Assembly (NCBI GenBank): GCA_903822205.1
Contig: CAIJOK010000095.1
Location: forward strand, 1-38,978
Direction: 5' to 3'
DNA length: 38,978 bases
Source of the DNA: an uncultured beta proteobacterium
GTDB lineage: Bacteria > Pseudomonadota > Gammaproteobacteria > Burkholderiales > Burkholderiaceae_C
Of this stretch, positions 4,007 through 31,403 are shown in pieces. The position numbers and the translations under genes are program-made. Below the pieces are notes generated by a model. It did not search any database and was not told the DNA's origin. It saw only the letters and a list, made by a program, of their open reading frames with translations. The number at the start of each line of letters is the position of its first letter. The stretch's first letter is position 1.

Positions 4007-4624
4007 TCACACAGATAACTTATTAATACCCAATTCTGCTGATTGATCAAGATGTCGATGAACCAAGTTAAAGAGCGCCAGCGCGGTGTCCGCTGCATCG
4101 GTGTGCTGGTCCGGTGGACAGACGGCATCGGCAAAGCGCAAAAAGTCCTGCCAGCACGACATGGCAGTGTCGCCATTGCCGTCAAAAAACTGCAAGGGCA
4201 GATGGCCTGCGCCCATCTGGCGAAGGGTGCGGGCGATGATCTGTCCGCCCATGCCTGAGCCTTCAACGGTGTACAACACACCCACCAAGGTGGCGACGGA
4301 CTGCGGCAGCGGCAATGTGAGCGTCAGCGGATACGGCGACCTGTTCAGTGCAGCCAGATCGGCCTCCAGCAAAGGCAGTCTGCGCCTGGGGCGGTAGCCT
4401 GGCAGCTCAGCGTGTTGGTCCAAAAACGCATGGATAAAACCCTCAGACAGGGCGTGAACGCCGTGCAGTGCCGCCAGGGCATTGCCGTACTGCCAGGCGC
4501 TTAAACCTGGCTGTAGCAAGGGGGCCAACACAGGGTGATGGTCCAGACCGTGGTGCGCTTGTTTGCTGGTCTGGCGTAAGAGGTGGTGCAGGGGCGATGC
4601 CGCCCGGGGGTCATAGCTGCTCAT
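4007..4624 (-). CDS. bphO: Heme oxygenase (BphO-type, biliverdin-forming)
   Basis: 205 residues, a normal length for bacterial heme oxygenases. It opens heme to biliverdin, CO and iron. The N-terminal helix contains KQAHHGLDHHPVL, where a His of the heme-ligand helix is expected. The distal-helix signature LVGVLYTVEGSGMGGQII (about residues 113-130) matches the family's glycine-rich heme-contact motif. It lies 16 bases downstream of a bacteriophytochrome gene, the classical arrangement for supplying the biliverdin chromophore. The start is set in a 10-bp tandem repeat that offers ATGs in three frames at 4634, 4624 and 4614; 4624 is the one that continues this frame. A role in iron acquisition is the alternative, but the phytochrome next door makes chromophore supply more likely. 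Confidence 0.88.
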   Translation of the reverse strand: MSSYDPRAASPLHHLLRQTSKQAHHGLDHHPVLAPLLQPGLSAWQYGNALAALHGVHALSEGFIHAFLDQHAELPGYRPRRRLPLLEADLAALNRSPYPLTLTLPLPQSVATLVGVLYTVEGSGMGGQIIARTLRQMGAGHLPLQFFDGNGDTAMSCWQDFLRFADAVCPPDQHTDAADTALALFNLVHRHLDQSAELGINKLSV

Positions 4625-4634
4625 AGCTGCTCAT
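4611..4634 (-). repeat. 10-bp tandem repeat across the bphO start codon
   Basis: On the minus strand the unit ATGAGCAGCT occurs twice and is followed by ATGACC, so start codons recur every 10 bases in all three frames. The first ATG (4634) opens a seven-codon ORF that ends in a TGA overlapping the third ATG. Confidence 0.85.
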
Positions 4635-4640
4635 CACTGT

Positions 4641-6149
4641 TTATAACCAACGCAACAGGTTGTTGCGGAATTTGGCCGCGACGATCTGTTCCTCTTTGGT
4701 CCATGGGCGGCTGTAATCACTTTTGTTTTCAACCCAGCGCTCAAACGATCGGCGTGGCGACAAAGCGATGGCACCGACGTTTTCACTCATGGGCTTGTTG
4801 GGGTTACCGGCCCAGGCCACTTGTTGAGGCTCTGCCTGACGAAACCAGTAAAACCGCACCCATCCGGATCGGGGGGACTGGGCTTTGATGGCCATCATGC
4901 CGCTGGCCACCGAAAGCACCAGCATGTGATCCGGAAAAAGGTCCGCCAAGTGGTCAGAACTGAGGATCAGGTCTTTGCAGCGATTGACAAACCAGTCGTC
5001 GATCACGGCCAAGCCGTCAATGTCAGGACCGTCACCGTTGATCACGACGTTGTCTTTGATGGCCAGTGCAAACCCCTGCGCACTCAGCGCGTCCATGAGG
5101 GCCTGGCCGTTGGTTTCAATGCCGTCCAGGGGATCGGCATAAGCGCCCAGTTTTTCAAGGACACCGTCAATGCGTCTGTCCAGACTGTCGATGGTTTTAA
5201 GACGCTGTCCGGACAGGTAAGACGACAAGCCCAGCGCGTAGGTGTGGGTGAGCACCACGCAGGCATTGCGCTGGTCAGGGGTGAGGATTTGCGCGGTTTG
5301 GTGGTGACAGGCCACAAGCCCCCACATGTTGCCGTTGATGCGGATGGGCACCGAAAACGAGGCCTGAATGCCCATGTTGGCCAGATAAACCAAGTGAACT
5401 TCGGATGCACTGCGAAGGTCAGACCGGGTGAGATCGGGGATGGATTCATCGACACCCAGCACGGGAACGGTATCAGCCTTGGCATCCGGGATCATGCGGG
5501 CGGGGTTGATCATGTAAAGATTGCGGGCGATGGTTGGAATGTCGCTGGCCGGAAAGCGCAGATCAAGGTAGCTGCCAACGCCTGGTGTGGTGGCTTCGGC
5601 GATGACCTCGCCAGACCAGTCTGGCGTAAAACGGTAGATCATGATCCGGTCAAAACCGATGATGCTGCGAAACGCCTGCACCAAGGCCTGGTGGTAATGG
5701 GCTATTTCGTCGGGGTTTTGTGGCGCACTTAAAAAAATATGTTGCAAATGTTGCAGTGCGATAGGCTCTGCGGGGATGTTGTTGCGTTCTAGCTCAACGA
5801 GGATAAAACCATCACCGCGTATCAGCAAAGCGTCGATACGCCCCGCAGCATCCTGAAAAACCCCCCGAATGGCCATGGTCTGCCCCACCAGAGGCGAAAG
5901 CGGTGCGATCTGCTGGGATGTCAACCACGTGGACTGGTCGATGTGGCGGCCCAGCATGAAGGCAGGCGCTACACCCACAAAACTCTCAAGATTGGCGCTG
6001 GCGTGGGTCACGCAAAGGCTTTGGGTATCGATTCGCAACATCGCACCAAAAGACTGGATGGCCCCGGAAAGGTGCAATTTTTCGGCTTCACAGCCTTGCA
6101 ACAGTTGCTCCAGCGTGTGGGGGTGAACGTAAATATGTGTGTCGGTCAT
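4641..6149 (-). CDS. bphP: Bacteriophytochrome, PAS-GAF-PHY photosensory module without output domain
   Basis: 502 residues, covering exactly the photosensory core of a bacteriophytochrome. PAS is about 15-120, GAF about 135-305 and PHY about 320-495. The N-terminal Cys20 sits in the biliverdin-attachment context (CEAEKLHLSGAIQ). The chromophore-pocket landmarks are present: Tyr172 in MIYRF, the PASDIP motif with Asp203, His252 in EVHLVYLANMG, and the PHY tongue motif PRRSFERW (465-472). The usual histidine kinase that would follow the PHY exit helix is absent: the stop comes right after NNLLRWL. One deviation is IQSFG where most bacteriophytochromes have IQPHG. It lies between a CheB-CheR-PAS-GGDEF-EAL gene (76 bases upstream) and bphO (16 bases downstream), all on one strand. 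The output must therefore act in trans, perhaps through that neighbour. A recent loss of a kinase domain is possible, but no kinase remnant follows. Confidence 0.92.
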   Translation of the reverse strand: MTDTHIYVHPHTLEQLLQGCEAEKLHLSGAIQSFGAMLRIDTQSLCVTHASANLESFVGVAPAFMLGRHIDQSTWLTSQQIAPLSPLVGQTMAIRGVFQDAAGRIDALLIRGDGFILVELERNNIPAEPIALQHLQHIFLSAPQNPDEIAHYHQALVQAFRSIIGFDRIMIYRFTPDWSGEVIAEATTPGVGSYLDLRFPASDIPTIARNLYMINPARMIPDAKADTVPVLGVDESIPDLTRSDLRSASEVHLVYLANMGIQASFSVPIRINGNMWGLVACHHQTAQILTPDQRNACVVLTHTYALGLSSYLSGQRLKTIDSLDRRIDGVLEKLGAYADPLDGIETNGQALMDALSAQGFALAIKDNVVINGDGPDIDGLAVIDDWFVNRCKDLILSSDHLADLFPDHMLVLSVASGMMAIKAQSPRSGWVRFYWFRQAEPQQVAWAGNPNKPMSENVGAIALSPRRSFERWVENKSDYSRPWTKEEQIVAAKFRNNLLRWL

Positions 6150-6225
6150 AAAAAGGACTCTTGTGTGGATGGATGAAAAAAGACCCGGCAGACCACCCGT
6201 AGAGGCCAGTCAGGGACAGGTCGCA

Positions 6226-9200
6226 TCATAGGGTTTTTAGCATCGCACAGGCGGGCAAAACCTTGTCAGATGATTGCAGAACTGCGGCAAAATCCTCAAC
6301 AGACAGGGGGCGGTAAAACAAATAACCTTGGGCAATGTCGCAGCCGTCCTGTTTAAGCACGTCCAGTTGGGCCTGGGTTTCAACGCCTTCTGCGACGACA
6401 CGAAAGCCCAGCGCGTGGGCCATGTCAATGATGGTCTTGGCGATCGATCGGTCATCAGGCTCGGTGGCTATTTTGTCCACAAAGCTGCGGTCAACCTTTA
6501 ACTCGTTGAGAGGCAGCTTGCGCAGGTAGGCCAAAGACGAATAACCCGTGCCAAAGTCATCGACACTGACCCCCGTACCCATGTCGTGGAGTCTCATCAG
6601 CTTGCCGCGAACCACATCTATCTTTTGCATCAGGGCACTTTCGGTGATCTCGATGCTGATGCTGTAGGCCGGTAAACCGGCATCCTCCAGCCGTGATGTC
6701 AGTTGGGTGACAAAATTATCGTCACGCAACTGGTGCGCCGACACGTTGATGGAAATGCAGGGCACACCCAAGCCCTGCCTGCGCCAGCCTGCAATGTGGG
6801 ACAGCACCATGTCAACAACGCGCTCGCCGATGATCGATATCAAACCACAGCCTTCCGCCACCGGAATGAACTGAACCGGTGAAACATCACCCAAAATGGG
6901 GTCACGCCAACGCAGCAAGGCCTCGGCAGCCACGATCAAACCGCTGCTCAAGTCAATTTTGGGCTGATAGACCATGCGAAGGTGATCGTTTTCAAGGGCC
7001 ATGCGCAATCCGATCTCAAGCGTCATGCGTTGCAAGGCGATGACTTTCATCTCGTCGGCAAAAAACTGGTATTGGTTGCGGCCACGGTCTTTGGCTTGGT
7101 ACATGGCGGTGTCGGCGTTCTTCAGCAGACCCACGCAGTCCGTCCCATCGTCGGGATAGATGCTGATGCCGATACTGGCCGATACATGCAGGTGGCTGTC
7201 GTTGATAAAAAATGCGCTGGACATGCATTCAACAATCCGCGTGGCGATGGCATTGACCTCCGCAAGATCAACATCGGTCAGCACCGCCACAAACTCGTCG
7301 CCTCCCAGACGGGCCAACGTGTCGGCATCGCGGGTGCATTGCTGCAGACGCTCGGTGGCTTGCTTGAGCAAAATGTCGCCGACATCGTGGCCCAGGCTGT
7401 CGTTGATGTTCTTGAAATTATCCAGGTCAATAAACAAAATCGCCATGCGGTTGCCTTGGCGTTTGGCATGAAACAGGGCATGGTTCATGCGGTCGATCAG
7501 CAGGCTGCGGTTGGGTATGCCGGTTAGCTCATCGTGGGTGGCCAAAAACTCAACCCGTTGTTGCGATGACTTAAGAACCGCAATGTCGCTGAAAATGGCC
7601 ACATAGTTGATCAACATACCGTCATCGTCCTTGACGGCACTGAGGGTCAGCCACTCAGGATAGACATCGCCGTTTTTGCGACGGTTGTAGATTTCTCCTT
7701 GCCATGAGCCTTGCTCTTGCAGGCTGCGCCACATCGCTTGATAAAACGCTGGAGATGTTTGGCCCGACTTGAGCAGTCTGGGGTTTTTGCCCAAAACATC
7801 GTCAGCCGAATAGCCCGTGATTTGGGTAAAGGCCTGATTGACGCTGAGAATTTGAATATTGGCATCGGTGATGATGATGGCCTCACCGGCGCGGTCAAAT
7901 ACCTTGGAGGCCAGGCGCAATTGCTGATCGGCCTTGCGGCGGTAACTGACATCATTGGACTGTGTGCAGATCGATCGCAAATTGCCGTTGGCATCAAAGA
8001 TCGGAAAATGAACACTGTCCAGCCATACCGTGCCACCAGCCAGGGCGATACCGTCGGTGGTTTCGATGGCGGTTAGCTTGAGCATGGCCTCAAGGTCACC
8101 CGTTCGCATCAATTGGGCGATCTCAGGGCCAAACAATTGCTGGTCGGTCTTTCCGATCACGCTGGGGGCCAAAACCTGAAAAACCTGTTCAAAACGGTTA
8201 TTGACAAACTCATAACAACCAGCAGCGTCCTTGACCGAAATCAGCGACGTGGCGTGGTTCATGATCGACAACAGGCGCTCTTGACTGTCACGGGTGCGCT
8301 GCTGGGCCAGTGTCAGGTCGGTGTTGTCGATAACCACAAGCACTGCGCCTTGCACGGTATTAGGGTGGTTTAACACAGGCGTGACAAACACCTGGTAGGT
8401 GCGTCCGCCACCTTGGGCGGCAAAGCTGACTTTGCTGGTGTTGGAGATCGCGGCCTTCAGGTGACTGTCGATGTTTTGCAGGTGGGTCGGCAGGTTAAGG
8501 CGAACGACGGACTGCCCCACCGACGCGACAGAGAGGTCGTAACTGCGCATGGCGGCACCGTTGGCGCGTTTGAGTGCGAGCTGAACGTCCAGCAGCAATA
8601 CCGGAAAATCAACGGTGTTGAACAGGCTTTCAAAATCGCTGTTGATGACAGCCAGCTCGCCAGATTTGATCTGGCTTTCGTCATTGACACTGAGAAGCTC
8701 TTCGTTGGTCGCTTGAAGTTCTTCGTTGGATGTTTGCAGTTCCTCGGTCAGGGCCGACATTTCCTCCCTGAAGGCGCTCATTTCCTCCTCCATGGTCTGC
8801 AGACGTTCGCGCGCCAAAGCCAGTTCGTCAGCCAATGAGTTTTCAGTCTTGGTGTCAACCTCTTCGGTATCGTCAGCTGCGCCACCACCTGCAAAATGAT
8901 CGGCGTTTTCAAAAACGACCAAAAATAAATCACTGTCAGACAGGCACGTTACCGGATGAATGGCCAAGCGCCAAACGGCGTAGCCCAAAGACTCAATGCG
9001 GCGCTTGCGACTGTAGGCTGTCGCCTTGCGGCGCTGTGCTCTGAATAGGGTGGTCGAAACTTCATGGGTAAATTCGGGGACGATCAAATGCGCCAGATTA
9101 AGCTCGGGCGCGCCACTGGGAAAACTGATGAAACGCGCCAATTCACCGTGCGTGTGCAAAATGTGAAAGCTGGCATTCACCAAAATGGCTGACCCCACGC

Positions 9201-10749
9201 TGTCTGCGAGTGCCTTGAAAAAAATGGTTTCATTCGAACCGGGCAACGGGTGAGACGCGTCGCCCGGACGCTTTAACTGACCGCGCACCAGACGGGCCTG
9301 GGGGGTAGATTTAGGGGCCTCGCGGGACCTGAAAATTCGGGCCTGCAAATCGACCGTCGAAAACAAAGCTTCTTGCTGACTGATGGCCTCAGAGTGGCCC
9401 AAAAACACCAAGCCGTCTTGCAGCAGGCAGTGATGCACAATGGCCAGAACCCTTGCCTGAAGGTCTGTATTGAAATAAATCAACACATTACGGCAGGACA
9501 CCAAATCAATTTTTGGAAAAGTAGGGTCAACGGCAATATCCTGACGCGCAAACACCACGCAGTCGCGCAGGCTTTTGGTCACCTCAAAGCCTTTGGCATG
9601 CGGCTGAAAATAACGGCTGGTGTATCGAACGGGCATTTCAGCCAAGGCGGCTTGGCTATAGACACCCCGCCGTGCGACAGCCAGGGCATCGCCGTCGATG
9701 TCGGTGGCAAACACCAGCAGACGCACGGACCTTCCTGATTCTGAGACCAAGTCAAGACACATCATGGCCAATGAGTAGGCCTCTTCACCGGTAGCGCAGC
9801 CCACGACCCAGACGCGAAGCTCATCATCGGGCTGCTTTTGCTGCACCAGTTTTTGAAGATGCGGCCTGAGGGCACGAAAGGCATCTGGATCGCGGAAAAA
9901 CTCGGTGACCGAGATCAGAGCTTCCTTGGCCAGGGCATCCAGTTCGTCAGGGTGGGTATCGACATGCGCCAGATAGGCCTCAAGGGTGCTGGTTTTTGTC
10001 ACATTCATGCGCCGCTGAAGGCGACGCTGAACGGTAGCAGGCTTGTAACTGGAAAAATCGATTTGGGTGTGCATGCGCACCCGCTCAAGCAGGGTGGCAA
10101 AAGTAACCGAGCGAACATCAGGTTTGCTACCCATGGGCCTGTCGGTGACACCTAACGGGTCTGGCGGCAGGCGCAGCAGATGGTCAAGCACGTGGCAAAT
10201 CTCGTCAGGCGCAGCGACATAATCCGCTACACCTGCGTCGATGGCCGAGCACGGCATGCCGTCGTACTTGGCACTGTCTGGGGTTTGAACAAACGTCAAA
10301 CCACCAGCATCCTTGATGGCGCGCAAGCCCAATGTGCCGTCAGAGCCGGTGCCCGACAAAACAATGCCAATGGCACGTTGGCGAAACTCTTGTGCAATGG
10401 ACTGAAACAACAGGTTGATAGAAGGTTTAGGAATCCCTCCCCCGTCAGGCACACTCAAACGAAAACAGCCGTCGCTCATCACCAGGTTGGAGCCAGGCGG
10501 AACGACGTAGATGACGTTAAGCAAGGGTTTTTCGTCAGGCGCGATCTCTCGCACAACCATTTGTGTTTGCCGCGTCAGGATGTCGCTCATCATGCTTGGA
10601 TGGGATGCCGACATATGTTGGGCCACCACAAAGACACAGTCCGACTGTGTGGGCAGGTCGGTCAGAAATTGGCTGATCGCGTCCAGGCCACCGGCTGAGG
10701 ACCCAATGCCCACCACATAGTGGGGGAGACCGGTAGAAGCATCAGTCAT
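6226..10749 (-). CDS. CheB-CheR-coiled coil-PAS(3)-GGDEF-EAL fusion protein
   Basis: 1507 residues with no obvious membrane helix, so probably cytoplasmic. Domains in order are a CheB methylesterase at 10-190 (GIGSSAGG, His45 and GTGSDG with Asp137), a CheR methyltransferase at about 210-480 (VVGCATGEEAYSLAM at 315-329, DLVSCRNVLIYF at 415-426), and a coiled coil at about 637-705. Three PAS domains follow at about 702-810, 822-935 and 943-1060. The GGDEF domain (1062-1230) has LGGDEF at 1148-1153 and an intact RxxD inhibitory site at 1140-1143. The EAL domain (1245-1490) has AAEALLRW, ITES, DDFGTG and AEGVET. All sites needed for c-di-GMP synthesis and hydrolysis look complete, so direction cannot be told. 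CheB-CheR-PAS fusions more often end in a histidine kinase. It is the first full-length gene of the phytochrome/heme-oxygenase run. The start at 10749 lacks a good Shine-Dalgarno sequence; see the overlapping leader ORF. Confidence 0.92.
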   Translation of the reverse strand: MTDASTGLPHYVVGIGSSAGGLDAISQFLTDLPTQSDCVFVVAQHMSASHPSMMSDILTRQTQMVVREIAPDEKPLLNVIYVVPPGSNLVMSDGCFRLSVPDGGGIPKPSINLLFQSIAQEFRQRAIGIVLSGTGSDGTLGLRAIKDAGGLTFVQTPDSAKYDGMPCSAIDAGVADYVAAPDEICHVLDHLLRLPPDPLGVTDRPMGSKPDVRSVTFATLLERVRMHTQIDFSSYKPATVQRRLQRRMNVTKTSTLEAYLAHVDTHPDELDALAKEALISVTEFFRDPDAFRALRPHLQKLVQQKQPDDELRVWVVGCATGEEAYSLAMMCLDLVSESGRSVRLLVFATDIDGDALAVARRGVYSQAALAEMPVRYTSRYFQPHAKGFEVTKSLRDCVVFARQDIAVDPTFPKIDLVSCRNVLIYFNTDLQARVLAIVHHCLLQDGLVFLGHSEAISQQEALFSTVDLQARIFRSREAPKSTPQARLVRGQLKRPGDASHPLPGSNETIFFKALADSVGSAILVNASFHILHTHGELARFISFPSGAPELNLAHLIVPEFTHEVSTTLFRAQRRKATAYSRKRRIESLGYAVWRLAIHPVTCLSDSDLFLVVFENADHFAGGGAADDTEEVDTKTENSLADELALARERLQTMEEEMSAFREEMSALTEELQTSNEELQATNEELLSVNDESQIKSGELAVINSDFESLFNTVDFPVLLLDVQLALKRANGAAMRSYDLSVASVGQSVVRLNLPTHLQNIDSHLKAAISNTSKVSFAAQGGGRTYQVFVTPVLNHPNTVQGAVLVVIDNTDLTLAQQRTRDSQERLLSIMNHATSLISVKDAAGCYEFVNNRFEQVFQVLAPSVIGKTDQQLFGPEIAQLMRTGDLEAMLKLTAIETTDGIALAGGTVWLDSVHFPIFDANGNLRSICTQSNDVSYRRKADQQLRLASKVFDRAGEAIIITDANIQILSVNQAFTQITGYSADDVLGKNPRLLKSGQTSPAFYQAMWRSLQEQGSWQGEIYNRRKNGDVYPEWLTLSAVKDDDGMLINYVAIFSDIAVLKSSQQRVEFLATHDELTGIPNRSLLIDRMNHALFHAKRQGNRMAILFIDLDNFKNINDSLGHDVGDILLKQATERLQQCTRDADTLARLGGDEFVAVLTDVDLAEVNAIATRIVECMSSAFFINDSHLHVSASIGISIYPDDGTDCVGLLKNADTAMYQAKDRGRNQYQFFADEMKVIALQRMTLEIGLRMALENDHLRMVYQPKIDLSSGLIVAAEALLRWRDPILGDVSPVQFIPVAEGCGLISIIGERVVDMVLSHIAGWRRQGLGVPCISINVSAHQLRDDNFVTQLTSRLEDAGLPAYSISIEITESALMQKIDVVRGKLMRLHDMGTGVSVDDFGTGYSSLAYLRKLPLNELKVDRSFVDKIATEPDDRSIAKTIIDMAHALGFRVVAEGVETQAQLDVLKQDGCDIAQGYLFYRPLSVEDFAAVLQSSDKVLPACAMLKTL

Positions 10750-10816
10750 GACGGTCAGTCTGTAAGACTGTCAACCCTTGACACTGCCTTGATCTCTGGA
10801 ATTGTTGAATTTGCAT
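10742..10816 (-). CDS. Candidate 24-residue leader peptide overlapping the CheB-CheR fusion start
   Basis: A Gln-rich ORF of 24 codons (begins MQIQQFQRS) with a strong AGGAG six bases before its ATG. It runs in another frame through the start codon of the CheB-CheR fusion at 10749 and stops at 10742-10744. The fusion gene itself has no clear ribosome site, so translational coupling through this small ORF is plausible. It matches no family I know. It may be a regulatory leader rather than a functional peptide, or chance. Confidence 0.35.
   Translation of the reverse strand: MQIQQFQRSRQCQGLTVLQTDRHD
10756..10770. promoter_or_regulatory. Perfect inverted repeat at the translation start of the CheB-CheR fusion
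   Basis: CAGTCT-GTA-AGACTG, a six-base perfect inverted repeat with a three-base centre, lies 7 to 21 bases before the ATG on the minus strand, where a ribosome site should be. It could be an operator or an RNA hairpin blocking initiation. Confidence 0.35.
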
Positions 10817-16542: not shown

Positions 16543-17664
16543 CTATACGGCAGGTTGGTAAATCTGGTCATCCATGGTGGATGCTTCATTCATGGCATGC
16601 AGCCAGTCGTCGGCGTGGGGAGGCATCTGGCTGTCAAGCTGCTCCACGGTTTGCTGCATGCGTGCCATGTTGTCATGCACACCGAGCAGGATCTGCGATA
16701 CACGGTCTTGAAACTGCATGGCCATCATCAGCTTTTCAACCTCTTGGCGCACCACCATGCCGTGCTCGTGCATGGAGTCAGCCGATGCCCCCAGCTTGCG
16801 AACATGGCCTAAGACATGCTCGACCAGCTCACCGGACAGCGACACCGCACGTTTGTCCTGAATGGCGGAATCCTCGGCGGTGGTCATGGTGGCCTTCATG
16901 GTAGCGAGGATTTGACCCACACGATTACCGATCCGCTGGCCGGTGTCGGCTGAGCGCTGCGACAAAGCCCTGACCTCGGTTGCCACCACGGCAAAACCGC
17001 GGCCAGACTCTCCTGCGCGTGCGGCCTCGATGGCTGCGTTCAGGGCCAACAGATTGGTCTGGGCAGCAATGCTGCGAACCTCGGCACTCATAACCGCAAG
17101 CTCAAGCGTATCCTTGGCCAACTGACGAACGTTGGTCATCAGCGCATCTTTCCCCTCGATCAAACTGGTCAGGGATAAAACGACGGGTTGCAATTCACGC
17201 TCGCACAGGGTCAGCAAGCTGATGGTGGAATCGTCCCTGGTGCGCAGATCCGTCCCACCAATACCGGCCTGGTCAAACTGTTCCAGTACCGATCCAAAGC
17301 TGGTCGTCAGTTGCGTCACGGCTTGCTCTGTGTGGTTTTTGACCAAGTCAACCTGGTACTGCCAGGCGGGCAATACGTCTTGTAACAGGGGAGGCAGCCC
17401 TTGGAGCGCGCTGCCGTCCAGCGCGCTTTGCGGCGCTTGGTTGATGCGGTTTGCAAGCACACTCACCCTTGAGTGCAGCCACCACACGCTGGCTCCAGAC
17501 ACTGCGGTGGTGCCCAACAAACCTAGCCAGGGCAACCAATTGGCATCAAACAGCAGGGGTAAAGACGCAAACACTGCGGCCAACACGGGTGCCGCAAACC
17601 ACCAGCCTGTGGATGCTGCGGCAAAGTCAGGAGGATGGTTGCCGTTAGAAGGGTGATCTGGCAT
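16543..17664 (-). CDS. Minimal methyl-accepting chemotaxis protein without a periplasmic sensor
   Basis: 373 residues from the ATG at 17664, which has AAGGA eight bases upstream. Two membrane helices (about 21-40 and 43-63) are separated by only a few residues, so there is no ligand-binding domain outside the membrane. I see no clear HAMP domain. The cytoplasmic part is helical and holds the receptor hairpin tip [21 protein letters not shown] to [15 protein letters not shown] (199-235), which contacts CheA and CheW. A second conserved stretch is [11 protein letters not shown] (316-326). No C-terminal pentapeptide for CheR/CheB docking is visible. A longer start at 17805 is open but gives an unusual N-terminus. 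It may sense membrane state or redox, or report for another sensor. It pairs with the receiver gene downstream. Confidence 0.87.
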
Positions 17665-17838
17665 GGAGAAAATCCTTGTGGCTTCAAATAAAACGACGTG
17701 TGGTAGAGGGTGATCGGTGAATCTCTTGACAGCAACCTCAGGGTCCCGTGCAGGCGGTATGCTCTGCTGCAAAGCATCATAAACCCAAAAAACAGCCTGA
17801 CCCATGTCGCATAGGCACTTTGATCACGGATGGAATCA

Positions 17839-17865
17839 CAAAATGGCTCACAGCACCGCCATAAT
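17839..17865 (+). promoter_or_regulatory. Weak candidate promoter before the REC-EAL gene (FliA-like or sigma-70 -10)
   Basis: CAAA, 15 bases, then GCCATAAT resembles the flagellar sigma-28 pattern TAAA-N15-GCCGATAA with a mismatch and one missing base. CATAAT alone could be a sigma-70 -10 box. It lies about 55 bases before the gene. Confidence 0.25.
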
Positions 17866-17918
17866 CTGTCCCTTGAAATACCCTGTCATCCCGCCCCACT
17901 TACTGAAAGGCCTGCTCA

Positions 17919-19112
17919 ATGCGATTTGCACCCAACGCGATATTGGTCGTTGATGACGATGAATTTCAACGCGATTTGATCGGTCTGCAACTCTCCAATC
18001 TCGGCTGTCATGCCATTTTGATGGCAGCCAACGGTGCCGAAGCCCTTAAGCAGTTTGATCTCCACAAAGCCAGTCTTCGCTTGATCATCAGTGACCTGTC
18101 CATGCCCGACATGGATGGTCTGGTGATGATGCGCCACCTGGCTCAACGCGACTTTGGCGGGGCCATCGTCCTACTGTCAAGCATGCAAGACGAGATTTTG
18201 AGCAGTGCAGGTGGCCTGGCCAACGCCCACGGACTGAATATTCTGGGCTGCCTGAGCAAGCCTTGCAATCCCGAAAAACTGCGGTCATTGCTGGGCAGTC
18301 TGAGCGTTCAACCCAACCTGACGGTGCAGTCCAGCCTGTCACAGGCCCTAGCCCCCGAGCGTCTGGCGGCCGCGTTAGCCTGTGGGGAGTTTGTGGCTTG
18401 GTATCAGCCCAAGGTTGACCTGCACAGCGGCAAGCCCGTGGGGGCCGAAGCGCTAGCCCGCTGGCCACAGGCTGATGGCAGCTTGATCAGTCCTGCCAGC
18501 TTTGTACCGGCACTTGAGGCCGCAGGGCTGGCCGACGAGCTGTTCTTCGTCATGGCCACCCAAGTGGCTGGAGCCATGGCGCACTGGCGATCCAAAAACA
18601 TCCCCATCAAAACCGCGATCAACCTGTCCATGGACTCAGCGCTTAACCTAACCATGCCTGAGCGCCTGGGGCGTATCGTCAGTGCGGCAGGGCTGGCCCC
18701 CACTGACTTTGTGATCGAGGTCACCGAAAGCCGCCTGATGGTTGAACGCTCTCTAGCCATGGAAAGTTTGACCCGACTGTCATTGATGGGCTACACCTTG
18801 TCCATCGACGACTTTGGCACCGGTTACTCCAGTCTTGTGCAACTTATTGACCTGCCATTCAAAGAACTCAAGATAGACGGCAGCTTTGTTCAAAGATCAG
18901 ACACCGAGCGCAAGGCCCAGGCTATTTTGCGCATTGCCATCATGCTGGGGCAGGAGTTGGGTATCAACGTGATTGCGGAAGGCGTTGAAACCGTCGAGCA
19001 GCTTGAATTTATCCGTGCCAGCGGCGGCCACACAGTGCAGGGCTATTACTATTCGCGTCCCTTGCCGTTGCCCTCCTGTACCGAATGGTTCAAGGACAGG
19101 TTGCCCGCATGA
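17919..19112 (+). CDS. REC-EAL response regulator, c-di-GMP phosphodiesterase (RocR/PvrR-like)
   Basis: 397 residues. The receiver occupies 1-128 with VDDDEF, phosphoacceptor Asp59 in LIISDLSMPDMDG and Lys114 in LGCLSKPC. The EAL domain spans about 145-395 with GAEALARW (E177), AINLSM, VTESRL, DDFGTGYSSL, FKELKIDGSFV and AEGVET, a complete set of metal and catalytic residues. It should hydrolyse c-di-GMP to pGpG under control of phosphorylation. The arrangement matches Pseudomonas RocR/PvrR, which work with hybrid kinases carrying HPt domains, exactly the type encoded just downstream. AAAGG lies 9 bases before the start. Its stop overlaps the next start as ATGA, so it is translationally coupled to the first hybrid kinase. 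Confidence 0.93.
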   Translation: MRFAPNAILVVDDDEFQRDLIGLQLSNLGCHAILMAANGAEALKQFDLHKASLRLIISDLSMPDMDGLVMMRHLAQRDFGGAIVLLSSMQDEILSSAGGLANAHGLNILGCLSKPCNPEKLRSLLGSLSVQPNLTVQSSLSQALAPERLAAALACGEFVAWYQPKVDLHSGKPVGAEALARWPQADGSLISPASFVPALEAAGLADELFFVMATQVAGAMAHWRSKNIPIKTAINLSMDSALNLTMPERLGRIVSAAGLAPTDFVIEVTESRLMVERSLAMESLTRLSLMGYTLSIDDFGTGYSSLVQLIDLPFKELKIDGSFVQRSDTERKAQAILRIAIMLGQELGINVIAEGVETVEQLEFIRASGGHTVQGYYYSRPLPLPSCTEWFKDRLPA

Positions 19113-22100
19113 ATAACGCCATCAATCCCATCACCCCCATCAGTCCATGGTCATGGCGGTCGCTACAGACCCGCATCACGGTGCTGACGCTGTCGGCTTT
19201 TCTGGTCAGTATCTGGTCATTGTCTTTGTTTGCCGCCCGCACCCTGCACCAAGACATCTTGCAATTGCAAAGCGACCAGCAAATGGCCACCGTGACGCTC
19301 CACGCTGGCGACATCCACCGCACACTGACGGAGCGCCTGGCCTCACTTGAGTCCATTACGCCGCTCTTGACGCTTAACTTGCTACAGTCCCCCGCAGACC
19401 TTCAGGCATTCTTAGTGGATCGGCTAACCCTGCCTGTGCTGTTTAACGGGGGGTTTTTTGTAACCGATGCCAGCGGCACAGCCATCGCGTCCTTGCCGTT
19501 GAGTGCGCACCGGGTGGGTGTGAACTACATGGAGCGTGACCACGTTGCATCAGCACTGAGGCAAGGCATCAGCACCATCAGCAAGCCTGTGATTGGCAAG
19601 CAATTGTTGTCGCCGGTCGTGTCCATGGCTGTACCTATTCGCGACATCTTGGGACGCCGTATCGGCTGTGTCGTGGGGGTGATTGACTTGGGTCGTCCCA
19701 ACTTTTTGGACCAGATGCTCTCTGCTCATTACGGAAAGACGGGCGCGTATTTGCTTGTGGCCAATCCGTGGCGCATCGCGGTGTCTGCCACGGACAAACG
19801 GCATACCCTCAAAGACTTGCCGGGTGTAGGCGTTCATCAAGCCCTGGACCGCTTTGTGGGCGGTTTTGAGGGCACGGTTCTCATGCAAGACCTTCAGGGA
19901 GTTGATGTTTTGGCATCTTCTGTTCGCATACCGGTGGCCAACTGGAGCATGGTGGCGATGCTCCCCGTTGAAGAAGCTTTTAGACCGGTCAATCACCTCA
20001 TCCAGCTCATCGGGCTGGCCACATTCATAGCCTCTTTGCTGACGGGCACCCTGACTTGGTGGCTTTTGCGCAGACAGCTTAGGCCCGTGCATGAGGCCTT
20101 TCGATCCTTGGTTTTGCAAGGTGCGTCTTTGCAGCCTTTGCAGCCCTTGCCCAAAACCAGCGATGATGAAGTGGGCCAACTGATCAGTGGATTCAATGAC
20201 TTGATTCAGAGTTTGGCCCAGCGCGAGACCGACTACAAGCGGAGTGAACAGAACGCGCGCACCTTGGCCACCAGGCTGGACGAAGCCCAGAAAATGTCGC
20301 AGCTTGGTAACTGGACGCTCGATATCGAGACGGGGGCGTTGGACTGGAGCAGCGAGATATACCGGATGTTTGAGCTTACTCCCGAGCAGTTTGCCGCCAC
20401 CTACGAGGCCTTTCTGGACGCTATTCATCCGGATGACCGACAGATGGTGAACGAAGCCTACATTGCGTCCCTGTCTTCGCGAACACCCTACCAAGTTGAG
20501 CACCGCTTGCTGATGACCGATGGTCGTATCAAGTGGGTACAAGAGCGCTGCCGTTCCGAGTTTGATGCCGTCGGCCAAGCCCTGCGTTCGATAGGCACCG
20601 TGCTGGACATCACCGACAGCAAACTGGCTGAAACCGCCCTCAAAGAAGCCCACTACCTGCTGATGACCGTGATCGATGCCATACCGATGCGCATATTCTG
20701 GAAGGGCTTGCACCTGAACTTTTTGGGCTGCAACACAGAATTTGCCCGTGAGGCCGGCAAGCAAAGCCCTTCTGAGCTGATCGGCAGAGATGACTTTCAA
20801 ATGGGCTGGGCCGACCAAGCCTATTTGTACCGCGAGGATGACCGCAAAGTGATCAACACCGGTGTGCCAAGGCTGTTTTATGACGAGCCAGAGACACGCC
20901 CTGACGGCCAAACAACCTGGCTGCGCAAATCCAAAATTCCGTTGCGTGACCCCACAGGCCAAGTGGTGGGGGTACTTGGCATCATTGAAGACATCACGCA
21001 GCGCAAACTGGCCGAGGAGCAGTTGCGCAAACTGTCGCAGATCGCCGAGCAAAGCCCAGAAAGCGTGGTGGTGACCAATCTTGCCGCCACCATTGAGTAT
21101 GTCAATGAGACATTTGTGCGCAACACCGGCTATACCCGCGAAGAGGCGATCGGACAAAACCCCCGCATCCTTCAGTCTGACCAAACCCTCCAAGCCACGT
21201 ATGACACCATGTGGGAGACTTTGGTGCAGGGCAAAACTTGGAGCGGCGAGTTAGTCAATCGTCGCAAGAACGGCAGCGTTTACCATGAATGGGCGATCAT
21301 CTCGCCCCTGCGTGACCGTGACGATGTGATCACCCATTACGTGGCCGTCAAGGAGGATATCTCCGAGAAAAAACGCACCGCCAATGAGCTGGACCAGCAT
21401 CGTCACCGGCTTGAAGAACTGGTCAAAGTCCGCACCGAGGAACTGGACCGGGCGCGGCAGCAGGCCGATGCCGCCAACCGATCCAAGTCTGCCTTTCTGG
21501 CCAACATGAGCCACGAGATTCGCACCCCCATGAACGGTGTGATCGGGATGCTCGACATCATCATGCAAACCCACTTGAGCACCGACCAGCGGCGCATGAT
21601 GGCCACCATCAACAGTTCATCCATGGCCTTGTTGCACATTCTGAATGACATTCTGGATTTTTCAAAAATCGAGGCCGGCAAGCTTGAGCTTGAACACGTT
21701 CCCACCCATCTGCGCGAAGTGGTTGAGGATGCCGCCCTGTTGATGCAAAACGTGGCTGGCAACAAAGGCATGACTAACAGCGAAGGAAGCAACCAAGACT
21801 CTGAAATCTCTTTGTTTTTTGACCCCACCCTGCCTGAATGGATTCTCTCTGACCCCACCCGTTTGCGCCAGATTTTGCTCAACTTGTTGAGCAACGCGCT
21901 TAAATTTACGTCTCACCGTGCAGGCCACACCATGTTGCACGTGCAACCCTCCACCCTGTCTGACGGCACAGCCTGTATTCAAATGAGCGTGATCGACAAC
22001 GGCGTTGGCATGAGCGAGGACGTGGTCGCCAAGCTCTTTCAGCCCTTTACCCAGGCAGAATCGAGCACGATGCGCCGCTTTGGAGGTACAGGACTGGGAC

Positions 22101-23497
22101 TGTCCATCACGCACCATCTGGTTGATCTGCTGCATGGCAGCATCAAGGTGCAGAGCGCCTTGGGCCTGGGTTCTGAATTTACCGTTGAGATTCCGGTCAC
22201 GGTCACCGCCGCACCGCCGGGTCATCATCCACCCCTAATGCCTGATTTACGCGGGGTCTCGGTATTGACGGTGGCCCCCTCGGTGGCTTCCATGACGCTG
22301 TTTCAGATGTACCTGGGCGCTGCCGGTGCTCAGGTAATGGCTGTCCCCGACGTCGCTGCTGCACGCCATCGCATGGCACAGCCCGCATCCCTTGACGCGC
22401 CCATCGTCTTGTTGCTGGACAGCACCCAGACCGACAGGGCAGACCCGCAGCTCACGGGTTCGTTGGCGGACTTTGATTGTGACGATGATCAAACCGGTGT
22501 CGTACGGCTGGTCCGCCGAGGTCGCACAAGCACCAGCCGTCACGCTGTGGACGTGCTTACCTGGCCCTTGCTCTATGCGGATCTGCTGAGGGGCGTCGGT
22601 GTGGCGTCCGGTCGCATGGACATCCGTGACTTGGCGCAAGCCGACGGGCATCCATCACTGTTGCTGGGCCGTACGGCCCCAGACATCGACACGGCAGCTC
22701 GTCGTGGTCATTTGATCTTGGTGGCCGATGACAACGAAACCAACTGCTGCGTGATCCGCGAACAGCTCAAACTCTTGGGCTACGCCAGCGAGGTTGCCCC
22801 TGACGGCGCGGCAGCACTGGCCCTATGGCGCACGGGGCGTTACGGACTCTTGCTGACCGACTGCCACATGCCGATTTTGGACGGTTTTGAACTGACCGCA
22901 GCCATTCGCCAGGACGAGGGCACAGGTCCCCACAAACCCATCATCGCCGTCACCGCCAACGTGATGCAAGCCGACACCGACTTATGCAAGGTACACGGCA
23001 TGGATGACCACCTGAGCAAACCGCTGCGCATGCAGGCGCTGAGCGCGGTGCTGGCGCGCTGGCTGCCATTGCCTGCTGCCGATCAATCGGTTTCAGATGC
23101 CCCACTGCCCTCGGATGCAAACTTAGGCATCATGTCAAACCCGTCGCATGAGGACATGCCGGCAGAGTGGGATGCCAGCGTGCTGGGCCATCTGGTGGGT
23201 TATGACCCCGCCGTTTTGCAACACGTGTTTCAAAAGTTTTTGAGCAATACCACCCGCCAATTTGCTTGCCTAGAGCACGCCCTGGATACCCGTGACATGA
23301 ACACCCTGACGGCTTTGGCACACACGCTTAAGTCTGCAGCCCGATCGGTCGGAGCCTTGGCCCTGGGCGACCTGTGCCAGTCGATCGAAACCGCTGGCGC
23401 GTCAGGCCACGCGGAGGTTTGTTTGCAACTGGCTCAAGCCCTGCCTGCGGCACTGACCGCTGCTATCGCCCACATTCGCCAGCATCTGGCAGGCTAA
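19109..23497 (+). CDS. Hybrid histidine kinase 1: Cache-HAMP-PAS(3)-HisKA-HATPase-pseudoREC-REC-HPt
   Basis: 1462 residues from the ATG at 19109, which shares four bases with the previous stop. TM1 is about 22-44, then a periplasmic double-Cache-like sensor at about 48-290, TM2 at about 298-320 and HAMP to about 372. PAS domains follow at about 390-505, 515-630 and 640-755. HisKA has His802 ([12 protein letters not shown]). The HATPase spans 905-1030 with DNGVGM and GGTGLGLSI. A degenerate receiver at about 1045-1165 lacks the acidic pair and has LTWPL where the Lys should be. The true receiver has Asp1251 (LLLTDCHMP) and Lys1304. The HPt has His1405 ([10 protein letters not shown]). It is an inner-membrane sensor of an extracellular small molecule with a complete internal phosphorelay. 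The ligand is unknown. Confidence 0.93.
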   Translation: MNNAINPITPISPWSWRSLQTRITVLTLSAFLVSIWSLSLFAARTLHQDILQLQSDQQMATVTLHAGDIHRTLTERLASLESITPLLTLNLLQSPADLQAFLVDRLTLPVLFNGGFFVTDASGTAIASLPLSAHRVGVNYMERDHVASALRQGISTISKPVIGKQLLSPVVSMAVPIRDILGRRIGCVVGVIDLGRPNFLDQMLSAHYGKTGAYLLVANPWRIAVSATDKRHTLKDLPGVGVHQALDRFVGGFEGTVLMQDLQGVDVLASSVRIPVANWSMVAMLPVEEAFRPVNHLIQLIGLATFIASLLTGTLTWWLLRRQLRPVHEAFRSLVLQGASLQPLQPLPKTSDDEVGQLISGFNDLIQSLAQRETDYKRSEQNARTLATRLDEAQKMSQLGNWTLDIETGALDWSSEIYRMFELTPEQFAATYEAFLDAIHPDDRQMVNEAYIASLSSRTPYQVEHRLLMTDGRIKWVQERCRSEFDAVGQALRSIGTVLDITDSKLAETALKEAHYLLMTVIDAIPMRIFWKGLHLNFLGCNTEFAREAGKQSPSELIGRDDFQMGWADQAYLYREDDRKVINTGVPRLFYDEPETRPDGQTTWLRKSKIPLRDPTGQVVGVLGIIEDITQRKLAEEQLRKLSQIAEQSPESVVVTNLAATIEYVNETFVRNTGYTREEAIGQNPRILQSDQTLQATYDTMWETLVQGKTWSGELVNRRKNGSVYHEWAIISPLRDRDDVITHYVAVKEDISEKKRTANELDQHRHRLEELVKVRTEELDRARQQADAANRSKSAFLANMSHEIRTPMNGVIGMLDIIMQTHLSTDQRRMMATINSSSMALLHILNDILDFSKIEAGKLELEHVPTHLREVVEDAALLMQNVAGNKGMTNSEGSNQDSEISLFFDPTLPEWILSDPTRLRQILLNLLSNALKFTSHRAGHTMLHVQPSTLSDGTACIQMSVIDNGVGMSEDVVAKLFQPFTQAESSTMRRFGGTGLGLSITHHLVDLLHGSIKVQSALGLGSEFTVEIPVTVTAAPPGHHPPLMPDLRGVSVLTVAPSVASMTLFQMYLGAAGAQVMAVPDVAAARHRMAQPASLDAPIVLLLDSTQTDRADPQLTGSLADFDCDDDQTGVVRLVRRGRTSTSRHAVDVLTWPLLYADLLRGVGVASGRMDIRDLAQADGHPSLLLGRTAPDIDTAARRGHLILVADDNETNCCVIREQLKLLGYASEVAPDGAAALALWRTGRYGLLLTDCHMPILDGFELTAAIRQDEGTGPHKPIIAVTANVMQADTDLCKVHGMDDHLSKPLRMQALSAVLARWLPLPAADQSVSDAPLPSDANLGIMSNPSHEDMPAEWDASVLGHLVGYDPAVLQHVFQKFLSNTTRQFACLEHALDTRDMNTLTALAHTLKSAARSVGALALGDLCQSIETAGASGHAEVCLQLAQALPAALTAAIAHIRQHLAG

Positions 23498-23509
23498 CGA
23501 CCCACATTC

Positions 23510-24343
23510 ATGAAATTTGACCCTCTCTTTAAAAACGCTAACCACCTGCCGGTGCTGCCCAAAGTGCTGCAAAACTTGCTGGTCAGCTTTAACGACGATA
23601 CCCTGCGCGCTGACTTGCTGGCGCGGCAGATCGAGCAAGACCCCGTGATCAACGCCCGTCTGCTTCGTTTAGCCAACTCCGCCTGTTACCAGATGCCGCA
23701 GACCATCAGCACGGCCCATCAAGCCGTTCAACAACTGGGCATGGTCAATGTCCGTTCCCTGGTGATCAGCATTGGACTGGCGGGCTGCCTGTCGGGACTT
23801 CCGCCTGCCTTGATCCAACCCTACTGGCGGCACAGCCTGCACACAGCCACCGCTGCCCGCTACTGGGCATCCGGGGTGCAGATCGATGCCGAACTGTCCT
23901 ACACCCTGGGTCTGCTGCACGGAATAGGCCAGTTGGTGCTGCGCACGGTCTATCCGGATGCCATGCTGCGGCTTGACCAGCAAACCGGCCCATTTGCACC
24001 TGGGCGACGGGCAGCGGAGCGCGAAGAATTTGGCTATGACCACGCCGATGTAGGCGCTGGACTCGCATGTCACTGGCAACTACCGCCGCTGTTTGCCATC
24101 GTGATTGCTGGCGCAATGGCTACCTCCGACACCAGCGATGCCGCCCGTTTGACAGCACTGGTGCAGGTGGCCACCTGGCAATCGTGGGTATCTGACCAGC
24201 TTTTTAACGAAGACCAAATCGAGACCACCTGGCCGGCCCCGTTGGCCCTGCAGGTGGGCCTGGATCGCAGCGTTTGTGGACAGCACTTTCCGCCCTGGGC
24301 ACAGTTGTGCGCCGGCCTTGAGGACTGCCTGATCTTCACATGA
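23510..24343 (+). CDS. HDOD-domain protein
   Basis: 277 residues. The HDOD fold runs from about 12 to 205: LPVLPKVLQNLL at the start, IEQDPVINARLLRLANSA, then AVQQLGMVNVRSLV and LGLLHGIGQLVL. HDOD domains resemble HD phosphohydrolases without full catalytic residues and often sit among signalling genes as regulators of motility, c-di-GMP or stress responses. Here the gene lies between two hybrid kinases, 12 bases after the first and overlapping the start of the second by four bases (ATGA), so it is part of the same operon. No receiver or output domain is attached. Its biochemical role is not known. Confidence 0.88.
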   Translation: MKFDPLFKNANHLPVLPKVLQNLLVSFNDDTLRADLLARQIEQDPVINARLLRLANSACYQMPQTISTAHQAVQQLGMVNVRSLVISIGLAGCLSGLPPALIQPYWRHSLHTATAARYWASGVQIDAELSYTLGLLHGIGQLVLRTVYPDAMLRLDQQTGPFAPGRRAAEREEFGYDHADVGAGLACHWQLPPLFAIVIAGAMATSDTSDAARLTALVQVATWQSWVSDQLFNEDQIETTWPAPLALQVGLDRSVCGQHFPPWAQLCAGLEDCLIFT

Positions 24344-27300
24344 AATACCTGGCTTTCAAATTGGCGTTTGCCACGCTAGCCTATGCCGGAACGTCCTGGC
24401 TGGTGCAGGTGTATTTTTCTACCCAGTTCAAGGGCAGTATTTTCTTTTTGGCCAGTGGTGTGGCTCTGGTGGCCTTGGTGCTGGGCGGCAAGCGTTATTT
24501 TTTTAGCATTTTTTTGGGCGGTGTGCTAACCAATTGGCTGACTGACAAAACGTCTTACGCCAATTTGCTACAGGCCGGCGGTGCAGCCAGTGGGGCGTGG
24601 TTGGGGGCCTGGCTGCTGCGTCGTCGTGGACGGCTTGTGCATCATTTTGATGATTGTCTTGAAGGACTGCCCGATTTTTTGTACTTGATGGTGCTGGGTG
24701 GTCTGGTCAGTTGCAGTGTCAGCGCCGTGCTTGGCAGTTTCAGTTTGTGGTTACAGGGCTTTGTCAGTACCGGTAATTTTGGGGTAAGCGTGCTGGAATG
24801 GTGGATGGGCGACGTGCAAGGTGTGGTACTGCTTACACCGTTTGTTTTACTGTGGCGGCCCAGCCCCAACCGGCCTTTTGTCTTACCGTCCGCTCGCTAT
24901 TTGTCTGAAACTGCATGGGTTTTTGGGTCAACGGCGCTGGTGGCCTGCATGATTTTTTTGGACTGGGGGCAGGTCTGGTTTGACGCACATGCAGGACTGA
25001 TGCCCCGCGCATCTTCGCAGTCCTACTGGATGTTTGTCTTTATCACCTGGATAGCTGTGCGTCTGGGCCTGCGGGCCACCAGCTTGGCCATTCTGATGGT
25101 GGCGACCATTGCCGTGGTGGGCATCTATCAGAATGCGGGGGTGTTCAAACACGATATGGACCGTAGCCTGATCAGTTACTGGTTTTATACCCTGTGCCTG
25201 TCGGTAGTGGGCATGACGCTGGCGTATTACATCGACAGCAACAAACGGCTTGCAACCACCTTGTTCACATCAGACGCAAAAACCCGCCTGTGGCTTGATG
25301 AGTCCCCTGACCCCATCTTTAGCTTTACCCCAGACGCTCACTATGCCTATGTAAACAACGCCTTTGCAAAGCCGTTTGGCCTCTCGCCTGGGGACATCAT
25401 TGGCCGGACACCGGGTGACATCTTTCCGCCCCAGGAGGCTGAGCTGCGTGTGGCCGTCGTCAAGAACGTTTTTGCCCATGGACAAGAGCACAACCTAGAA
25501 GTCCGAGTACCAGCGGCGACCGGCGACCTCTTTTTTCTGACCCACGTCAAGCCTATCTTTAATACAGAGCGTCAAGTGGTGGCAGCGCTGGGCATCGCCC
25601 GTGAAATCACCCTGCGCAAACAGGCCGAGATGGCCCTTAAAACCTCGATGGCGCAGTTGGATGCCACCCTCAATGCCACCCAAGAGGGCATCTGTGTGAC
25701 CGACCAACAAGAGCGCGTCTTGCTCTGGAACCAGCGCTTCATCGACCTTTGGCATGTTCCCCCAGACATCCTTGAAAACCACGACCTCGTGGCTCTGCGA
25801 AAGTTTCAGACCGCGCAAATGGTCAATCAGACCACCCTATCATCAACCCTGGAGGGAAGCAAGCTTTCGCCTGGCAGCCATCACTTGGCCATGATTTGGC
25901 TGTCGGATCACCGGATTTTGTACGTCAGCGTTCAGCCACAGATCGTCGATGGGCAAATCACCGGCAGGGTGTGGTCGTATGCCGACGTGACCGACCTTAA
26001 AAATGCTGAGGAGGCGGCTCACGCAGCCGCCCGCACCAAGGCCAGCTTTTTAGCCAACATGAGTCACGAAATTCGCACCCCCATGAACGGCGTGGTGGGC
26101 ATGATCGACCTGCTTGATCGCACAGATCTTCAGCCTGATCAGCGTCGCATGGTGGGGGTGATGCAGCATTCTGCCGAAGCGCTTCTGGCCTTGCTCAACG
26201 ACATTCTGGATTACTCCAAGATGGAAGCCGGCAAAATGACCATCGAATACATTGCCACACCCTTGCGCCAGGTGGCTGAGAGCGTGATTCAGCTCTTGCA
26301 GCCGTCCGCCAGCGCCAAGTCTGTTGAGATGAACCTGTGGGTGTCACCTCAGTTACCGGACTGGTTTGTGTGTGACCCCACCCGTCTGCGCCAGATGCTT
26401 TTTAACCTGGTGGGTAACGCCATCAAGTTCACATCCTCTTCACCCGATCACACCGGTCGGGTTGTTTTACGGGTGATGCCCGGCACACAGGCAGACGGTC
26501 CCCAAATCGTGCAATGGTGCGTCCAGGACAACGGCATAGGCATCAGTCCCGATGTTGCGGCCACCTTGTTTACGCCTTTTACACAAGGAGACACCGACAC
26601 CACGCGCCGGTTTGGTGGCACGGGGCTGGGCTTGTCCATCACCTACCAGTTGGCAAGGCTGATGGGTGGAAGTCTGACCGTGCAAAGTGCGTTGGGCCAG
26701 GGGTCAGAGTTTCGCCTTCAGTTGCCTCTACAGACGGCCCCTGCCAGCAGTCCTATGGCTTTGCCGGACAAGACGGACGGGCCAGACCCACTTGACGTGC
26801 AGTTTTTGCCTGCACCCAGCACAAACCAGGCTATCGATCGCGGTCAATTGGTTTTATTGGCCGAAGACAACCCTACCAACCGCGATGTGTTGCATGAACA
26901 ATTACGACAGTTAGGCTACGCCGCCGAGATCGCTGAAGACGGTGTCGTTGCCATGGAGATGTGGCGCACGGGTCGCTATGCGCTGCTGCTGACAGACTGT
27001 CATATGCCTCGTATGGATGGCTTTGAACTGACGGCAGCCATCCGTGCCGCAGAGTCCCCCCATCAACATCACCCCATCATCGCCGTAACGGCCAACGCCA
27101 TGTCCGGCGAAGCCCGACGCTGCCTGGATGCCGGCATGGACGACTATTTGTCCAAGCCCCTGCGGTTGCACGAGCTGGGGCTGATGCTGGCCAAGTGGTT
27201 GCCGATCAACCCCGTCACTTCTGTCACGACACCGTTAGCCCCATCGGTTGTGGACAGCTCACCGGCATCACCAGCATCATCCACCCCCACAGAGGCTGGC

Positions 27301-31321: not shown

Positions 31322-31403
31322 TGCACCCTTTGGCACAATCCCCCGCTTATCGGCGGTGTGCCTCTCTTTGATTGATTTGCCACACACACAATAAGGAGTA
31401 TCC

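Follow-up and report, generated by a model that had tools for sequence, protein, structure and literature searches.

An outputless phytochrome clade beside a CheB-CheR-PAS-GGDEF-EAL fusion protein: a candidate split light-sensing module

The 38,978-nucleotide (nt) stretch of contig CAIJOK010000095.1 from an uncultured beta proteobacterium (the window) encodes on its minus strand a CheB-CheR-PAS-GGDEF-EAL fusion protein (6226-10749; 1507 amino acids, aa), a phytochrome PAS-GAF-PHY core that has no output domain of its own (4641-6149; 502 aa), and a heme oxygenase (4007-4624; 205 aa). We propose that the detached photosensory subunit probably acts in trans on the fusion, through a PAS-long helix-PAS region of the latter and mainly by way of cyclic di-GMP (c-di-GMP). 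An earlier note, made from the letters of the window alone, had suggested that light is passed in trans to the fusion; this proposal gains strong comparative support, since the outputless phytochromes form an old clade that has been inherited together with the fusion or, at some loci, with CheB-CheR and PAS-GGDEF-EAL encoded apart. The open reading frames (ORFs) and Pfam matches bear out the arrangement described there, three genes on one strand with gaps of 76 nt (fusion/phytochrome) and 16 nt (phytochrome/heme oxygenase).

The outputless phytochrome and its clade

The window phytochrome has the bacteriophytochrome core domains PAS_2 (5787-6092), GAF (5265-5690) and PHY (4650-5159, residues 331-500 of 502), all scoring over their Pfam cut-offs on the minus strand. 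Pfam finds nothing after PHY in the 502-aa chain, neither a kinase nor a remnant of one nor any other output domain, and there is no room for a kinase remnant because the heme oxygenase gene begins 16 nt past the stop codon; the end at residue 502 is thus as the earlier note described it. An output domain in the same chain is usual for bacteriophytochromes but not strictly defining. The match to NCBIfam NF041576 (BphP with kinase) reaches 218 bits against a curated score of 1040, and the PAS9 (and HOS) that follows PHY in type 3 phytochromes is absent from the window protein. In its predicted model (mean predicted local distance difference test score, pLDDT, 83.1; predicted template modelling score, pTM, 0.75; 14 sequences) the last helix covers residues 485-501, so that the PHY exit helix is predicted to stop with the chain. 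The model matches solved photosensory modules (DrBphP, Agp1), with TMq of 0.73-0.86 in the rows listed; FiDCB is a cyanobacterial phytochrome of Fischerella.

The site motifs of the core are present, namely Cys20 (codon at 6090-6092, minus strand), Asp203, His252 and the PRxSF tongue; we take the Cys before the PAS domain to bind biliverdin, and the DIP and PRxSF motifs to have the roles assigned to these sites in phytochromes. Asp203, His252 and the tongue motif are kept in all 15 outputless rows of the tree described below, and Cys20 in 14 of them, the exception being L101, whose open frame misses that stretch (loci are given as L numbers, genomes as G numbers).

The position of the stop codon is conserved. 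Among 80 distinct phytochrome frames, 17 including that of the window end 0-6 aa past the last modelled residue (the L108 frame among them belongs to a gene whose reading frame is broken, and L118 has its start cut by a contig end), whereas 61 continue for at least 180 aa; the remaining two are L102, which a contig end truncates, and the second L108 piece. Relatives share this last residue and the following gene begins right behind it, and for these reasons we reject a sequencing error or a lost kinase at 4641, which disposes of the earlier note's caveat that correcting such an error might recover a kinase domain. A tree was built from 73 phytochrome cores, with seven partial or broken rows excluded (L118, both L108 pieces, L079, L080, L007 and L008); in it the 15 outputless rows form one clade (support 100/99; 100% of 200 bootstrap trees), and the outputless state requires one change of label. 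The alignment of 14 outputless rows excluded L101 and L118. The search alignment was built from six outputless rows and its scores favour the clade; the tree is independent of those scores. The clade spans two classes and six families, of which one lies outside the window's class, and also includes one named lake-type metagenome bin (lake origin read from bin names); we regard it as old.

This retention bears on an improbable alternative, that the gene order is coincidental or simply inherited, with the phytochrome a relic or biliverdin store and the fusion sensing something else, for example redox through its third PAS domain. A relic would decay, but the clade retains its chromophore-pocket and tongue motifs over six families and two classes, and the conserved neighbourhood described in the next section speaks against coincidence.

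Outputless phytochromes are not common. In the genus scan a phytochrome was matched in 16 of 90 genomes, and an outputless one in seven (eight copies). The wider scans, in which the best three or four candidates per genome were scored, gave phytochrome matches in 91/399 genomes of the family (E <= 1e-30), 14/369 of the class (E <= 1e-50) and 47/398 of the phylum (E <= 1e-80). Outputless copies were recognised in four genomes each of the class and phylum samples, the window's own included, and its own copy is the sole intact one recognised in the family listing, the reading of which left out a short-frame partial match in G388. A candidate in G273 was rejected, its phytochrome frame being cut by a contig end. 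Three relatives from a named genome collection have 79, 78 and 65% identity, and two of these are the same contigs as G500 and G498. Phytochromes occur in 122 records of a plasmid collection, all below 60% identity, and among the 15 rows listed the annotation, where there is one, is kinase or ATP-binding protein.

Conserved neighbourhood and co-inheritance

We saw 17 outputless loci, the window counted, and upstream DNA is visible at 15 of these (L022 and L118 begin at contig ends). CheB-derived and GGDEF-EAL coding adjoins the phytochrome in 14 of the 15, whereas the same profiles find CheB or CheR in none of 40 loci, each of 11-16 kb, whose phytochrome carries an output; these were hand-picked from the family, class and phylum lists and are not a random sample. 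A separate GGDEF-EAL gene lies within the stretch in three control loci (L128, L141, L144), and three others have GGDEF in the same chain as the phytochrome (L157, L158, L160). The 15 outputless loci are related and their count is not one of independent events; given 14/15 against 0/40, the neighbourhood is not due to chance. A full fusion lies directly upstream of the phytochrome in the window, L094, L095, L021, L096, L097, L099, L100, L119 and L120. The fusion is split over two adjoining frames in L117 and lacks CheR and most of CheB in L098. In two loci the components are separate genes, in the order CheB-CheR, PAS-GGDEF-EAL, phytochrome in L023 and PAS-GGDEF-EAL, CheB-CheR, phytochrome in L101. 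Fusion and phytochrome genes overlap by 4-8 nt, with overlapping stop and start codons, in four of the 13 junctions printed (L094, L095, L096 and L099), and the genomic setting of the module varies, with neighbours such as gyrB, thrS and leuS.

The heme oxygenase, which we presume to be the source of biliverdin, has a Pfam match of 27.8 bits (cut-off 23) in the window and adjoins the phytochrome in 13 of the 17 outputless loci. A heme-oxygenase-like protein is encoded two genes on from the L022 phytochrome, the L096 genome has a heme oxygenase on another contig, and the L119 and L120 genomes have only weak matches elsewhere. The start of the window's heme oxygenase gene carries a 10-bp tandem duplication that takes in an ATG (4615-4634), at a position where relatives have a stop/start overlap.

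The fusion and the outputless phytochrome also occur together at the level of genomes. With a search model built on the helix-PAS region of the fusion, and at most 15 candidates scored per genome in the genus scan, close relatives (>600 bits) were found in six of the 90 genus genomes, all six with an outputless phytochrome (the next best match is 269 bits); the seventh genome with such a phytochrome has separate genes instead of a fusion. In the class sample, where the best three or four candidates per genome were scored, the model finds four of 369 genomes, the window's own, G586 and G754 (both >950 bits, both with an outputless phytochrome) and G051 (334 bits, without one). Twelve module rows, one of which, from G880, carried the label 'other', group together in a GGDEF-EAL tree (100/97) in an order much like that of the phytochrome tree. 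The GGDEF-EAL domains at L023 and L101 belong to other lineages, so that a c-di-GMP enzyme became joined to the outputless phytochrome on more than one occasion; such an enzyme is thus kept beside it even where the enzyme lineage differs.

Other phytochromes could instead be the partners. There is a slim chance, in our estimate, that the outputless protein acts in trans on phytochrome kinases, in mixed dimers or by other modulation, with the neighbourhood reflecting shared regulation only. Besides the outputless protein the window's genome gives eight phytochrome-like matches, among them several kinases, and phytochromes are dimeric (PMC6899989). However, G498 and G501 (assemblies 89% and 93% complete) have no phytochrome match in the genus scan besides the outputless one, and both phytochromes of G011 (53% complete) are outputless, so the outputless protein need not have another phytochrome as its partner; nor does this proposal explain the CheB-CheR/GGDEF-EAL neighbourhood in 14/15 loci.

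Several observations weigh against action of the phytochrome on the fusion. The window genes are separated by their gaps of 76 and 16 nt and do not overlap. The architecture of the fusion is also found with no adjoining phytochrome, at L187 (G051) and in a second CheB-CheR-PAS-GGDEF-EAL copy in G501 (L181:7673-12103), and therefore can work with other inputs; the phytochrome-linked copy in G501 lacks CheR. No single enzyme part of the module is intact at every locus: L098 has lost CheR and most of CheB, and L023 the front of CheB, with phytochrome and GGDEF-EAL retained in both, while the EAL domain is degenerate in L120 and its motifs are partly changed in L119. At L108 (G406, a three-contig genome) an outputless-type core in two frames, which we attribute to decay or error, is followed by a heme oxygenase, and there is no fusion within 14 kb. 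The CheB-CheR frame at L101 (9043-12064, G652) overlaps the phytochrome frame by ~390 nt and the open phytochrome frame lacks the Cys region, reflecting a deletion or an assembly fault. Finally, L022 has only a PAS-GGDEF gene downstream, its upstream side being cut off. This locus (L022:81-7486; G011, contig C45) holds a second outputless phytochrome of the clade and then the gene, which encodes a membrane-sensor-PAS-GGDEF protein; a 431-aa heme-oxygenase fusion, a B12-binding protein and a kinase lie further along, and it is perhaps a second light cluster.

The G+C content of the module (0.556) is unremarkable beside that of its flanks (0.587 and 0.560), and we reject recent foreign DNA. Scans gave six promoter-like sites against 4.2 in shuffles (sd 2.1) and 13 terminator-like sites against 8.8 (sd 2.9), with one minus-strand terminator-like site at the extreme end of the phytochrome gene (4667-4651); the scan decides nothing. 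In the window a frame of 24 codons (10770-10815), preceded by a purine-rich site, runs into the fusion start codon; such a frame is not obvious in the other upstream regions printed, although no systematic test was made. A further signalling run (16543-31847) begins with a minus-strand chemoreceptor, and its plus-strand part encodes a receiver-EAL protein, a hybrid kinase, an HDOD protein, a MASE1 hybrid kinase, a PAS hybrid kinase and a receiver.

The fusion protein and a proposed signalling route

Pfam and the predicted model (mean pLDDT 79.4, pTM 0.33) together give the domain order CheB-CheR-PAS-helix-PAS-PAS-PAS-GGDEF-EAL for the fusion, the presumed receiver of the light signal. The CheB methylesterase (residues 13-186; 10192-10713) has its Ser, His and Asp motifs, and since it begins at residue 13 and Pfam finds no receiver domain in the chain, the usual CheB receiver is missing; CheR_N and the CheR methyltransferase follow (residues 217-470; 9340-10101), with the S-adenosylmethionine motif present. 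A PAS-like fold at residues about 506-615 (8905-9234) is seen in the predicted model only, with no Pfam match over it, and precedes a long Glu-rich helix (residues about 639-712; 8614-8835), a probable coiled coil on the strength of the model and of an EELQ-type motif repeated in 10 relatives. PAS1 (PAS_10; residues 707-808; 8326-8631) is a Pfam match, PAS2 (residues about 836-933; 7951-8244) comes from the model and is one of three PAS_4 stretches in Pfam, and PAS3 (residues 951-1057; 7579-7899) is supported by Pfam and by structure. The closest structural match of PAS3 is the flavin adenine dinucleotide-binding PAS domain of NifL, and LOV domains are among its fold matches. LOV photoreceptors have a photoactive Cys in their LOV motif; PAS3 has GKNPRLL, with no Cys there. 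The GGDEF domain (residues 1070-1226; 7072-7542) has both the GGDEF and RxxD (I-site) motifs, and the EAL domain (residues 1248-1481; 6307-7008) its catalytic motifs, as in a bifunctional enzyme. All of these domains are on the minus strand, and their CheB, CheR, GGDEF, RxxD and EAL motifs presumably have the roles assigned to them elsewhere. The CheB and CheR motifs, and likewise GGDEF and RxxD, are kept in 10/10 intact fusions aligned.

In the mechanism that we favour, the phytochrome core would take up biliverdin from the neighbouring heme oxygenase, and red and far-red light would toggle it between two forms. As its chain includes no output, the core would bind the fusion, with the PAS-long helix-PAS region as the likeliest site, and this contact would change the GGDEF and EAL activities in one direction or the other. 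Light would thereby set the c-di-GMP level, and with it the balance of motility and attachment. Through the CheB and CheR domains of the fusion the same light signal may also adjust chemoreceptor methylation; this last step is possible but weaker, because CheB/CheR is damaged in two loci (L098 and L023).

The reverse weighting, that the module has light-controlled receptor methylation through CheB/CheR as its main output while GGDEF-EAL is secondary or senses c-di-GMP, is in our judgement unlikely, if a little less so than the kinase-partner and relic alternatives above. The intact CheB and CheR motifs of the aligned fusions, CheA in 14/14 host genomes, and L120, where CheB/CheR stays while the EAL domain is degenerate, all speak for it. 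On the other hand, it is the phytochrome and GGDEF-EAL that remain in the two damaged loci, and a CheB without a receiver domain has no known phosphorylation control.

Relation to known systems and significance

In the accepted picture a phytochrome passes its signal along a single helix to an output domain within its own polypeptide. The nearest precedent for another arrangement is RpBphP1-RpPpsR2 of Rhodopseudomonas palustris, in which a kinase-less type 3 phytochrome acts in trans on a PAS-Qhelix-PAS1-PAS2 repressor (PMC6899989). The likeness lies in the missing kinase and in a partner with a PAS-long helix-PAS-PAS stretch, action in trans being proposed here. The differences are that RpBphP1 keeps PAS9 and HOS after PHY, where the window phytochrome has nothing, and RpPpsR2 is a DNA-binding repressor of photosynthesis genes, whereas the presumed partner here is an enzyme. 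PpsR, a relative of the phytochrome-bound PpsR2, is the first Foldseek match to the PAS-helix-PAS-PAS region of the fusion, which speaks for our proposal. The geometry of this match is weak (TM-scores 0.17-0.21, 12% identity), and PpsR is not among the best 50 matches listed in a second structural alignment, which are filled by PAS3 matches; both points count against our proposal.

Phytochrome control of c-di-GMP is already known; the present module would differ in being split and in having CheB/CheR attached. The one-chain enzymes IsPadC (PHY-GGDEF) and BphG1 of Rhodobacter sphaeroides reportedly have a phytochrome controlling GGDEF/EAL domains, as proposed for the module. Fused phytochromes of the genus (L030, L031, L106) similarly have sensor and enzyme in one chain, without CheB/CheR; PAS domains lie between phytochrome and GGDEF/EAL in L030 and L106, and a heme oxygenase beside L030. 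We rejected a 'Rosetta stone' argument from such one-chain phytochrome-PAS-GGDEF-EAL proteins, since both their cores and their GGDEF-EAL domains group apart from the split module in the two trees, which makes them a parallel case only. CheB-CheR-PAS-kinase fusions (e.g. L182:3000-7223) share CheB-CheR, the Glu-rich helix and PAS domains with the window fusion; they have a histidine kinase and receiver at the end in place of GGDEF-EAL, and at L182 no phytochrome adjoins. In the open-access papers searched, including PMC4618731, PMC10813442, PMC5812497, PMC8396549 and PMC8846402, we found no description of a split phytochrome and CheB-CheR-GGDEF-EAL module.

None of the 14 host genomes tested encodes a photosynthetic reaction-centre protein. 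The window's genome (3.05 Mb; L024-L029), which lacks one too, has nine phytochrome-like matches, and several of these are multi-PAS hybrid kinases reaching about 2000 aa.

Retention of the outputless clade over six families would open signalling in trans to testing as a general mode of phytochrome action, and the module would supply a natural two-part red-light switch for c-di-GMP. Direct light control of CheB and CheR, if true, would be a new coupling of photosensing to chemotaxis adaptation. More tentatively, we consider it possible that the detached-sensor clade sets both c-di-GMP and receptor methylation by red light, in trans and through one enzyme, in non-photosynthetic hosts; one light switch would then tune both where a cell swims and whether it swims, possibly joined to redox sensing through a flavin PAS domain.

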